The notes beneath the pieces were generated by a model. It saw nothing but the letters and a program-made list of their open reading frames with translations, made no database searches and had not been told where the DNA came from. From a bacterium (GTDB lineage Bacteria; Patescibacteriota; Doudnabacteria; UBA920), in the NCBI GenBank assembly GCA_021825655.1, contig JAKAGU010000009.1, forward strand, positions 670-34,324: a DNA stretch of 33,655 bases, given 5' to 3'. Of the stretch, positions 22,556 through 26,164 are shown in pieces. A program made the position numbers and the translations under genes. Every line of letters starts with the position of its first letter. Positions within the stretch are counted from its first letter, which is position 1.

Positions 22556-23320
22556 ATGGAATTTGGGATTTTTACCCTCCTCTTGCTGGTCCTGGTTTTT
22601 GTAGTCCTGCCCGGGCTGCGCGTGGTCCAACAGTACGAGAAGGGCGTAGTCTTTGTCTTAGGCAAGATTACAGGCATAAAAGAGCCGGGCCTGTGCTGGG
22701 TTATCCCTTATATTTCCTGGATGCGCAAAGTTGACCTTAGAACTATTACTTTGCCCATTCCGCCGCAGAAGATTATTACCAAGGATAATGTTTCGGTAGA
22801 CGTTTCCGCTGTGGCCTACTACCAGGTGGTGGATGTGGTCAAAAGCATTGTGGCCATAGAAAATGTCATGTCCGCAATTAACCAGATTGCGCAGACAACC
22901 ATAAGGAATATTGTCGGCAAGTTCCAGCTGGATGAGATTCTCTCCGAGCGCACGACTATAAACCAGGAAATTCGCGCCGTGCTGGACCAGCACACCGAAC
23001 CCTGGGGCGTGGTAGTGTCTTTGGTGGAAATTAAGGACATTGAACTGCCGGAAAATATGCAGCGCGCCATGGCCAAGCAGGCCGAAGCCGAACGCGAAAA
23101 GCGCGCTAAGATTATTGCTGCTGAAGGCGAATTCCTTTCCGTACAGAAACTGGCCGACGCGGCGGATGTGATTAATACCCACCCGATTGCCCTGCAGCTC
23201 AGGAATTTACAGACCATGGCGGAAATCTCCGTGGAAAAAAACTCCACCATAATTTTCCCCGCCCAGTTTATGAGCACAGTCCAGGACATAAAGAATTTTG
23301 TTGATTTAGAGAAAAAATAA
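22556..23320 (+). CDS. SPFH/band 7 (slipin/stomatin-like) membrane protein
   Basis: LRVVQQYEKGVVFVLGKITGIKEPGLCWVIPYISWMRKVDLRTITLPIPPQKIITKDNVSVDVSAVAYYQVVD...MAKQAEAEREKRAKIIAAEGEF. Confidence 0.95.
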   Translation: MEFGIFTLLLLVLVFVVLPGLRVVQQYEKGVVFVLGKITGIKEPGLCWVIPYISWMRKVDLRTITLPIPPQKIITKDNVSVDVSAVAYYQVVDVVKSIVAIENVMSAINQIAQTTIRNIVGKFQLDEILSERTTINQEIRAVLDQHTEPWGVVVSLVEIKDIELPENMQRAMAKQAEAEREKRAKIIAAEGEFLSVQKLADAADVINTHPIALQLRNLQTMAEISVEKNSTIIFPAQFMSTVQDIKNFVDLEKK

Positions 23321-24132: not shown

Positions 24133-24354
24133 CTACACACCCCAAGCTTCACGGAAGAGCAAGTGGTCGCGCATAAAGCTCATGAGCGCGGGCTTGGATT
24201 TCGGGGCCATGACCCCGACGCCGTCATCCCTGACCAGGATATTCCACTTGCATCCATTGATGCTTTGTTCGAGGTGATAAACCCCGTCCATTTGCTGCCC
24301 CACGGTCTTAATGGCGCTAAGGGCCCCTTCCGACTTGATGAACAAGCGAAGCAT
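24133..24354 (-). CDS. Gene A: uncharacterised 73-aa protein
   Basis: MLRLFIKSEGALSAIKTVGQQMDGVYHLEQSINGCKWNILVRDDGVGVMAPKSKPALMSFMRDHLLFREAWGV; strong SD AGGAGG 10 nt upstream. Confidence 0.65.
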   Translation of the reverse strand: MLRLFIKSEGALSAIKTVGQQMDGVYHLEQSINGCKWNILVRDDGVGVMAPKSKPALMSFMRDHLLFREAWGV

Positions 24355-24420
24355 TTCTATTTTTCCTCCTGGGAACGTGATTTGCGAACTCAAGCAAATT
24401 TGTTAGCTTGCTTCAGGCCG

Positions 24421-24459
24421 CAAAAATAATAAAACCCCTTCTTGGGCAGAAGGGGTTTT
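24421..24459 (-). terminator. Attenuator terminator A (upstream of gene A)
   Basis: Minus strand: AAAACCCCTTCT-gccca-AGAAGGGGTTTT (12 bp) followed by ATTATTTTT. Confidence 0.85.
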
Positions 24460-24479
24460 ATGCTTTAAGGAAATTATAA

Positions 24480-24563
24480 TCAAATTCCAAAACCCCTTAT
24501 GCGAGTAAGGCTAAGGGTAAGGAGCAGGCTTTGGATTTTAATAATAATGTTTTTTGGGCTCAT
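24480..24563 (-). CDS. Putative leader peptide A (27 aa)
   Basis: ATG...TGA encodes MSPKNIIIKIQSLLLTLSLTRIRGFGI; last codons overlap antiterminator segment 2 (AAGGGGTTTT), 30 nt before the terminator hairpin. Confidence 0.5.
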   Translation of the reverse strand: MSPKNIIIKIQSLLLTLSLTRIRGFGI

Positions 24564-24599
24564 ATTTTTATAAAGGCGTAAATGCATTAATTGTTGGGG

Positions 24600-24644: not shown

Positions 24645-24917
24645 TTAGCCGCCTTGGATGGGGCCGGGCTCGAAGCAGAGCTGCTTCGTTCGGGGGTTGA
24701 CGAATACCGTCTCCCCGGGTTTGAGCGTGATGGGCTGCTTGTCGCTGCTGCCGTAGCAAAATTTCCCGCAAGCGACTTTGAGTTTGAGCAGTCCGTTGTT
24801 GGAGACCACTTCGCCTTCGATTTCGCCGGTATACAACTGGCCGGTGAGCTTTAGGGTTAGCTGTCCTGGGGCGGCGAAGTCGACGTCGTTTTCTACCGTG
24901 TAAACATGCACGGCCAT
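24645..24917 (-). CDS. Gene B2: uncharacterised 90-aa protein
   Basis: MAVHVYTVENDVDFAAPGQLTLKLTGQLYTGEIEGEVVSNNGLLKLKVACGKFCYGSSDKQPITLKPGETVFVNPRTKQLCFEPGPIQGG; SD AAGGAGG. Track start at 25157 is too long. Confidence 0.7.
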   Translation of the reverse strand: MAVHVYTVENDVDFAAPGQLTLKLTGQLYTGEIEGEVVSNNGLLKLKVACGKFCYGSSDKQPITLKPGETVFVNPRTKQLCFEPGPIQGG

Positions 24918-24934: not shown

Positions 24935-25081
24935 TTAGACTCCCATCAGAAACGGGATGACCCTGGACGGGTCCTGGTGGGGGTCTTGGTTGTCGTTGCC
25001 GGCGTTCCAGTACGGAATAGCCGGAAAATTGGTGCGGTACTCCTGGGTGGGAGCGGGGCGTTCTGTGGATTTGGGGTTCAT
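24935..25081 (-). CDS. Gene B1: uncharacterised 48-aa Pro/Asn-rich peptide
   Basis: MNPKSTERPAPTQEYRTNFPAIPYWNAGNDNQDPHQDPSRVIPFLMGV; GGGAG 7 nt upstream of the ATG; gene B2 starts 17 nt after its stop. Confidence 0.5.
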   Translation of the reverse strand: MNPKSTERPAPTQEYRTNFPAIPYWNAGNDNQDPHQDPSRVIPFLMGV

Positions 25082-25154: not shown

Positions 25155-25183
25155 CAAAAAATCCTCCCCGCCAGGGGGAGGAT
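25155..25183 (-). terminator. Attenuator terminator B (upstream of B1/B2)
   Basis: Minus strand: ATCCTCCCC-ctggc-GGGGAGGAT followed by TTTTTG. Confidence 0.85.
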
Positions 25184-25199
25184 TGAAAGTTTTGTTTGC

Positions 25200-25280
25200 T
25201 TAAACCAAACTCTCTCTACGCCCGGCAGGGGAAGGAATAATAAGGCTAATAATGCTAATGAGAGAGAAATTGGAATACAT
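25200..25280 (-). CDS. Putative leader peptide B (26 aa)
   Basis: MYSNFSLISIISLIIPSPAGRRESLV; ATG lies 9 nt after the -10 TAAAAT; stop codon 16 nt before the terminator hairpin. Confidence 0.5.
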   Translation of the reverse strand: MYSNFSLISIISLIIPSPAGRRESLV

Positions 25281-25289
25281 AGTATAAAT

Positions 25290-25317
25290 ATTTTAGCAGA
25301 CTATTTTATCTTGTCAA
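25290..25317 (-). promoter_or_regulatory. Promoter B: TTGACA-N16-TAAAAT with extended -10 TGC
   Basis: Minus-strand TTGACA at 25317-25312 and TGC-TAAAAT at 25298-25290. Confidence 0.75.
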
Positions 25318-25416: not shown

Positions 25417-25926
25417 TTAGAACATGGCCTTGGCCGCAAAGCCCTGGTGCGTGCCCAAACGGGACTCCGCTCGCCAGATTCCGGATTCGCAGGCGAACCA
25501 GAATTTGGACAAGCTGCCTTCGGGCGGCTCCAGGTGCCAGACCCTGATTTCGTGGACCCGCTCGCCGATAGCCACGGAATGTAGGTTGCCGATGCGGCTG
25601 ACGTAGTCCGCAACCGGGCCGGTTACCCTCAGGGGCTGCGGGTCTCCCAGCTTGCAGATTTGGGCCAGGGCGCGGGTTTTCGCATTTAGAAACTCATCCG
25701 TGTCGCAGAATGAGCCTTCAATGCACAGTACCGGATCTTCCGGCAAGCCTATTTCCCCGGTGTATTCCAGGCCCGGCTTCTCTTTGTCCACGAAGACGAT
25801 TAGGTTGTTTTTGTCGCCCCGGACAATGAGCTTAACCCGGATGGGTTTCTGGTTTCCTTCAACAATGGCGAATGAGTCGCCGTTGGTGAAAGCGGAATTG
25901 GACACAAGTTTGGCAAAAAGCGGCAT
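25417..25926 (-). CDS. Gene C: uncharacterised 169-aa protein
   Basis: MPLFAKLVSNSAFTNGDSFAIVEGNQKPIRVKLIVRGDKNNLIVFVDKEKPGLEYTGEIGLPEDPVLCIEGSFCDTDEFLNAKTRALAQICKL...; SD GGAGGT 6 nt upstream of the ATG at 25926. The track start at 26055 would run through the terminator. Confidence 0.75.
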   Translation of the reverse strand: MPLFAKLVSNSAFTNGDSFAIVEGNQKPIRVKLIVRGDKNNLIVFVDKEKPGLEYTGEIGLPEDPVLCIEGSFCDTDEFLNAKTRALAQICKLGDPQPLRVTGPVADYVSRIGNLHSVAIGERVHEIRVWHLEPPEGSLSKFWFACESGIWRAESRLGTHQGFAAKAMF

Positions 25927-25976: not shown

Positions 25977-26012
25977 GTAAAAGAAAAACCCTCCCAAGGG
26001 TTTGGGAGGGTT
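25977..26012 (-). terminator. Attenuator terminator C (upstream of gene C)
   Basis: Minus strand: AAACCCTCCCAA-accc-TTGGGAGGGTTT (12 bp) followed by TTCTTTT. Confidence 0.88.
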
Positions 26013-26035
26013 TAAAGATGCAAGTTTTTTCTATG

Positions 26036-26125
26036 CTATCTTTTTCCTGTCCCAAACCAAAGAGCCGGCTTCTTAGTGGAAGTCTTAGTCATGGCCTTAT
26101 TGGTTTGGGCAGCGAAGATATTCAT
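26036..26125 (-). CDS. Putative leader peptide C (29 aa)
   Basis: MNIFAAQTNKAMTKTSTKKPALWFGTGKR; ATG 9 nt after the -10 TATTAT; carries attenuator segments 1 and 2. Confidence 0.6.
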   Translation of the reverse strand: MNIFAAQTNKAMTKTSTKKPALWFGTGKR

Positions 26126-26134
26126 ATTGGGTTC

Positions 26135-26164
26135 ATAATAGGGCAAAATTAGGGGTTTTGTCAA
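26135..26164 (-). promoter_or_regulatory. Promoter C: TTGACA-N18-TATTAT (minus strand)
   Basis: TTGACA at 26164-26159 and TATTAT at 26140-26135. Confidence 0.75.

Follow-up and report, generated by a model that had tools for sequence, protein, structure and literature searches.

A leucine-rich leader upstream of an orphan gene in a Doudnabacteria genome, a probable ribosome-mediated transcription attenuator

Introduction

In the stretch of DNA analyzed here (33,655 nt, hereafter the window), a short Leu-rich open reading frame (leader A) and a terminator hairpin lie directly upstream of a gene for a 73-aa orphan protein (24133..24354, minus strand), which raises the question of whether the leader senses leucine supply and, if so, what such a sensor controls. 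The leuL, ilvL, trpL, and pheA leaders of E. coli are ribosome-mediated attenuators of amino-acid operons, and a sequence-only reading of the window had seen an attenuator here as well. The comparative evidence strongly favors that reading, and we consider it highly probable that leader A attenuates transcription in the ribosome-mediated (trp/leu-type) manner and responds to leucyl-tRNA supply.

Results

Layout and folding of leader A

All elements of the putative switch are on the minus strand. Leader A, as read from the sequence, is an ORF of 27 aa at 24563-24480 encoding the peptide MSPKNIIIKIQSLLLTLSLTRIRGFGI, and an alternative in-frame ATG at 24587 would extend it to 35 aa. Codons 13-19 (24507..24527; CTG CTC CTT ACC CTT AGC CTT) hold the five Leu codons counted by the sequence-only reading, and they overlap segment 1 (24510..24548), which in the minimum-energy fold forms the 5' side of a 1:2 hairpin and has the core CCCTTA at 24517-24512. 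Segment 2, AAGGGGTTTT (24489..24498), has two alternative partners, segment 1 and the terminator 5' arm. This arm, segment 3 (24448..24461), includes AAAACCCCTT at 24459-24450, while segment 4, the 3' arm (24429..24442), includes a second AAGGGGTTTT at 24440-24431 and leads into a U-rich tail that extends to about 24421; the resulting terminator hairpin, 24461-24429, has 14 pairs.

The leader ORF and the first decamer (24498-24489) thus lie where the sequence-only reading had placed them. Its exact 10-nt repeat is real, but the second copy is at 24440-24431 and not at 24459-24450; the latter interval, taken for the 3' arm, is actually the complementary 5' arm, which matches the decamer on the plus strand. 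The logic that the first decamer can pair with the terminator 5' arm holds despite this mislabeled coordinate. CCCTTA and TAAGGG (24499-24494), named as the two sides of a 1:2 hairpin, are both present and the hairpin exists, although it is larger than these six pairs, with a minimum-energy fold covering about 24548-24473.

The leader A RNA folds at -43.2 kcal/mol into the 1:2 hairpin and the terminator (z = -5.7 relative to shuffles). Counting its two copies and the complementary arm, the window contains the decamer three times where 0.35 would be expected; none of 100 shuffles reached three. In order to locate the switch point, the RNA left free by a ribosome at each codon was folded for each leader up to the terminator loop, in an equilibrium calculation with a fixed ribosome footprint and no kinetics. 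For a ribosome placed on the Leu run, the calculated mean probability that upstream RNA pairs with the terminator 5' arm is 0.83, a value that was reached by 0/60 dinucleotide shuffles and is in line with the earlier proposal that stalling there would free segment 2. The corresponding value is 0.14 for the free RNA and 0 past codon 19, which is the switch position. Because the free-RNA value is only 0.14, an untranslated leader A should terminate by default, a behavior that is absent from many other leaders in the same calculation.

From this anatomy we infer actual termination, stalling upon starvation, and the nature of the signal as follows. With ample Leu-tRNA, the ribosome would pass the Leu codons and cover segment 2, allowing the 24461-24429 terminator to form, and without translation segments 1 and 2 would pair with each other so that the terminator would form too. 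A ribosome stalled in codons 13-19 would mask segment 1, leaving segment 2 to capture the 5' arm, and RNA polymerase would then continue into the 73-aa orphan gene, which is preceded by a plain ribosome-binding site (AGGAGG, 24370-24365).

Between the terminator and this ribosome-binding site, the fold contains a further hairpin (24381..24424) formed by the terminator U/GCGG tail and a downstream CGCAAA. Comparable hairpins between the tail and CACAAA/CGCAAA-like sequences precede the ribosome-binding site after several other leaders, for example at window 25150-25095, and also at locus L004, upstream of both controlled genes.

Recurrence and covariation in relatives

Leader A is the last of three switches in series on the minus strand, after C (Lys/Thr) and B (Ile), and this set recurs beside rplA across the family, in the regions downstream of rplA in relatives. 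Further leaders, one of them in another family of the order, were found with the class B covariance model, and Leu-run leaders occur at seven other places in relatives. A Leu run is present in 8/8 A-class leaders. The sample compared comprised 27 A/B/C leaders (8 A, 12 B, and 7 C) and 12 aromatic leaders (class D) from 16 genomes of the order. Candidates were chosen by a short ORF and a terminator, and the pairing and switch-point tests are independent of these criteria; the terminator found between leader ORF and gene in 27/27 A/B/C leaders was itself a search condition.

In 24 leaders, the cognate segment 2:3 duplexes summed to -480.9 kcal/mol, compared with -337 ± 16 kcal/mol when segments were permuted among leaders, and the cognate 1:2 duplexes to -485.1 kcal/mol, compared with -357 ± 17 kcal/mol (0/20,000 permutations in each case); both advantages also hold when permuting within class. 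A fixed rule (last 42 nt of the ORF) defined the segments in this test, to the disadvantage of the class B leader of genome G014 (G014_B): its cognate 2:3 duplex ranked last with these ORF-only segments because much of its segment 2 is past the stop codon. For class B, RNAalifold recovered the antiterminator from the alignment unprompted, with 86.6% of cells able to pair and 8/17 pairs changed on both sides. The covariation score was 0.426, compared with 0.152 ± 0.036 in shuffled alignments and at most 0.27 when slid. The longest repeat is 10 nt in leader A here, 11 nt in G029_B, and 3–7 nt in the others. The sequence-only reading had asked whether the duplicated decamer covaries in relatives. 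This check came out positive for complementarity, which is the conserved feature in the sequences compared, unlike the exact repeat.

Of 380 genomes sampled across the phylum, 9 had a match to the class B model at E<=1e-4 and 12 to the class D model, all but one of them within this order. The lone match outside the order (L120, G387:C4:102788-102896), in a more distant member of the phylum, contains a possible Tyr-run leader, MNKQIFVKIFNYYYSH, and a duplicated GGGAGG, and is only a lead. Away from rplA, a Leu leader, MNTFVSNNTLSLSLLLPRRCY, was seen upstream of a 125-aa orphan gene (L086, G007:C32:13672-13788). Matches to the class B model (R1) in G042 (L089, L091) contained no convincing leader, and an R1 match at G007:C22 (L090) proved to be an aromatic leader rather than one of class B.

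Amino-acid runs and the switch point

Leu makes up 60/219 residues of class A peptides vs. 36/463 outside class A (p=3e-11) and Ile 67/263 of class B vs. 25/419 (p=8e-13), and class C is enriched in Lys (p=4e-6) and Thr (p=7e-6); since the peptides themselves were read to assign the classes, these p-values characterize the classes but do not test them independently. In the folding calculation, the antiterminator remains available until roughly where the amino-acid run ends and is lost directly beyond that point, with an offset of 1.3 ± 2.2 codons over the 27 leaders, compared with a null standard deviation of 6.7 codons and a smallest value of 3.6 in 2000. The 12 aromatic leaders have the same match of run and switch point. 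Stalled-state pairing averages 0.78 over the 39 leaders vs. 0.47 in shuffles, although several single leaders, including leader B of this genome (G000_B), are not individually better than their shuffles. The anatomy, the covariation, the runs, and the coincidence of run and switch point can be seen in the sequences and their comparison.

Leaders B and C and the promoters

Leader C (26036..26125) encodes the Thr/Lys-rich peptide MNIFAAQTNKAMTKTSTKKPALWFGTGKR and is preceded by the promoter TTGACA-18-TATTAT (26135..26164) and followed by a terminator (25986..26013), which can pair through its 5' arm and loop with the leader sequence GGTTTGGGA, and by a gene for a 169-aa orphan (25417..25926). 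Leader B (25200..25280), MYSNFSLISIISLIIPSPAGRRESLV, has an Ile run and matches R1 with E=6e-19, a match that is not independent, as the genome itself (G000) is among the seven sequences of the model. Its promoter is TTGACA-16-TAAAAT (25290..25317) and its terminator lies at 25160..25184; the first gene after it (24935..25081) encodes 48 aa with the C-terminus FLMGV, and the second (24645..24917) a 90-aa orphan. The -10 box of leader B ends 9 nt before the ATG, as does that of leader C, and the leader B mRNA is therefore probably leaderless.

A near-consensus sigma-70-type promoter is present upstream of most A/B/C leaders, and the predicted 5' UTR is very short or absent in most of them. The promoter of G010_C scores poorly only when the first ATG is taken as the start, whereas the third ATG gives TTGACA-17-TATTAT. 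Exceptions are leader A here and in G016, in which a recognizable -35 box was not found (8/12 and 7/12 matches, respectively, compared with 10–12/12 for most leaders). A Shine-Dalgarno sequence is likewise absent from both, and these two gaps count against the attenuator reading. Leader A directly follows the B-operon genes and may be transcribed by read-through from that operon, in which case expression of its gene would require B as well as A to be open, a serial gate.

Controlled genes and genome setting

The source genome (838 kb in 23 contigs, estimated to be 100% complete) is small, as are those of its relatives (about 0.5–1.5 Mb). The leader A switch adjoins rplA, which is on the opposite strand. 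A gene of the Band-7/SPFH type lies between rplK and rplA (window 22556-23320), where it interrupts a cluster of ribosomal protein genes in an unusual way.

The 73-aa gene is common to only one other genome, G016, where a 45% identical homologue lies behind leader A, also beside rplA. A further apparent homologue, at an Acidovorax locus (L037), was rejected as spurious; it lies antisense to a proA-like gene. The 73-aa protein shows no link to leucine. It matched no Pfam family above cut-off and no NCBIfam family, and its AF2 model (pLDDT 84.7, fair confidence) matched no PDB fold at E<=0.001. For the 90-aa gene, homologues were sought in 191 genomes and found in none beyond its own. Downstream of A, B, and C, the ORFs are small (about 42–170 aa) and differ between genomes; comparing all controlled proteins with each other, clear kinship was found only between the two 73-aa proteins, and Pfam gave only sub-threshold zinc-ribbon hints. 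Several otherwise unrelated small proteins end in an aromatic/hydrophobic stretch followed by GV (FLMGV, FAFGV, FFGV, LWGV, EAWGV), namely that at window 25081-24935, the first genes after leader B in G016 and G013, the G014_B product, and the 73-aa protein.

We also considered whether the products contain less of the sensed residue, but clear support for this was lacking: Leu makes up 7.4% vs. 7.9% and Ile 5.2% vs. 7.1%, and the Lys and Thr contents are not lower. Ketol-acid reductoisomerase (KARI/IlvC) is needed for the synthesis of Ile, Val, and Leu. It was found in 0/22 family genomes, while 14/14 control genomes were positive, and leaders A and B therefore do not guard branched-chain amino acid (BCAA) synthesis.

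An aromatic leader upstream of DAHP synthase

DAHP synthase is a textbook target of attenuation. Searching the genome for leaderless near-consensus promoters returned 10 sites, compared with 2 for a reversed-pattern control; two of the 10 are those of leaders B and C, and a third belongs to an aromatic leader, MVKSTQNFWFFYFTEAQLRLEILS (G000:C16:8513-8656, within L102, G000:C16:7500-14500). This leader, with the run FWFFYF, lies directly upstream of a DAHP synthase gene (NCBIfam NF006421, 451.8 bits vs. a cut-off of 335). It has the same promoter layout, run, switch, and terminator logic as leader A but, unlike A, B, and C, controls a recognized biosynthetic enzyme.

An aromatic leader is present in 5/5 family genomes with DAHP synthase, and one genome of another family has an aromatic leader and DAHP synthase followed by a chorismate mutase-like gene (by eye), so that DAHP synthase is downstream of a class D leader in six genomes. 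Seven other family genomes keep the leader, and a DAHP synthase homologue was not found there; in most of these cases (L112, L113, L114, L115, L116, L117, and L090) the leader is followed by small orphan ORFs, and several of the ORFs have CxxC pairs. In the class D runs, F, W, and Y replace one another. The class D tail is partly conserved as nucleotides and is read in two frames, as LRLEILS or ETGNFEL, and it is therefore the RNA that is constrained there, not the peptide.

Another candidate (L099/L103, G000:C14:15235-15276, minus strand) combines a near-consensus promoter with a 29-codon ORF and a terminator upstream of a 125-aa ORF. As a candidate attenuator it was rejected, since it has a terminator but no clear antiterminator.

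Discussion

Alternative explanations

Leader A combines clustered Leu codons, a terminator, alternative pairing with covariation, and control codons placed at the switch. It could be argued that an ordinary intergenic terminator, a short ORF without meaning, and a coincidental repeat have come together by chance, and it is true that the 73-aa gene occurs in only one other genome and that a promoter for leader A was not found. However, the covariation and the family-wide recurrence contradict this, and the amino-acid enrichment, the switch-point match, the decamer count, and the stalled-state pairing are all against it, leaving coincidence with next to no plausibility. More plausible, though still quite improbable, is that the RNA switch is the same but that the nascent peptide itself stalls the ribosome on a small molecule, as in TnaC or the ErmC leader, rather than an uncharged tRNA. 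Hydrophobic Leu/Ile runs, the short and partly conserved class B peptides, and A–C targets with no apparent connection to amino-acid synthesis would fit such a sensor. Yet four amino-acid classes share one architecture, with runs that vary in length and position; F, W, and Y interchange in class D; the switch point moves with the run instead of keeping a constant distance from the start; and the same lineage has such a leader before DAHP synthase, all of which count against this alternative.

A different possibility, somewhat less remote than peptide-dependent stalling but unlikely, is that what has been conserved as a product is the attenuated leader RNA itself (about 130 nt) or the peptide, acting in trans, with the downstream ORFs being incidental. 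Conservation across genera is indeed seen for the leaders, whereas most of the downstream ORFs are unrelated, and rnTrpL/peTrpL of Sinorhizobium is a reported precedent for action in trans (PMC7298713). Against this, the downstream ORFs have ribosome-binding sites (these were required by the search script, although AGGAGG at 24370-24365 is plain), at least one downstream ORF is conserved (45% over 73 aa), and DAHP synthase is the downstream gene in the six class D cases; moreover, the leader is built for switching, which would be needless in a constitutive sRNA. Taken together, cis-acting attenuation in response to leucyl-tRNA remains the reading that we prefer for leader A.

What these attenuators might do is less certain. 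We hypothesize, giving the idea about even chances, that they have been decoupled from biosynthesis, such that conserved sensors of starvation, arranged as an array for Lys/Thr, Ile, Leu, and often aromatic amino acids, drive fast-replaced orphans, with B and A here perhaps forming an AND gate. A conserved sensor set would thus stand upstream of small orphans in a lineage with genomes of about 0.5–1.5 Mb that apparently lacks the branched-chain pathway. If this is right, it offers a way into amino-acid sensing in such bacteria and would mark otherwise uninterpretable orphan ORFs as probable starvation-induced genes.

Comparison with known systems

Searching the whole window against Rfam at the gathering score returned no match, including to leu-type leader, T-box, or riboswitch models, and a literature search of partial coverage returned no paper joining leader-peptide attenuation with the Candidate Phyla Radiation. 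Several described systems are nonetheless close. The BCAA synthesis operon of Staphylococcus aureus is described as having a Leu-rich attenuator peptide (PMC5794164); leader A shares the Leu-rich leader peptide and attenuation, whereas the S. aureus leader controls BCAA synthesis, for which the family studied here appears to lack ketol-acid reductoisomerase (0/22 genomes). Leader-peptide uORFs upstream of amino-acid genes have been recognized by comparative genomics in actinobacteria and corynebacteria (PMC1262725; PMC10272879), but those have biosynthetic targets and belong to another phylum, whereas A, B, and C precede orphans. Leaderless transcripts, as predicted for leader B, are common in mycobacteria (PMC4633059).

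With the attenuators of the E. coli leu/ilv/trp/phe type, leaders A, B, and C share a run of a single amino acid in the leader ORF, mutually exclusive 1:2, 2:3, and 3:4 hairpins, and an intrinsic terminator. They differ in controlling small orphan ORFs, in standing three in series, and in having a short or absent predicted 5' UTR; leader A, with its 73-aa orphan target, does not control the synthesis of the amino acid that it would sense, as leuL does. Therefore, the mechanism proposed here would be the textbook one, and what is unusual lies in the targets, the serial arrangement, and the lineage in which it is found.
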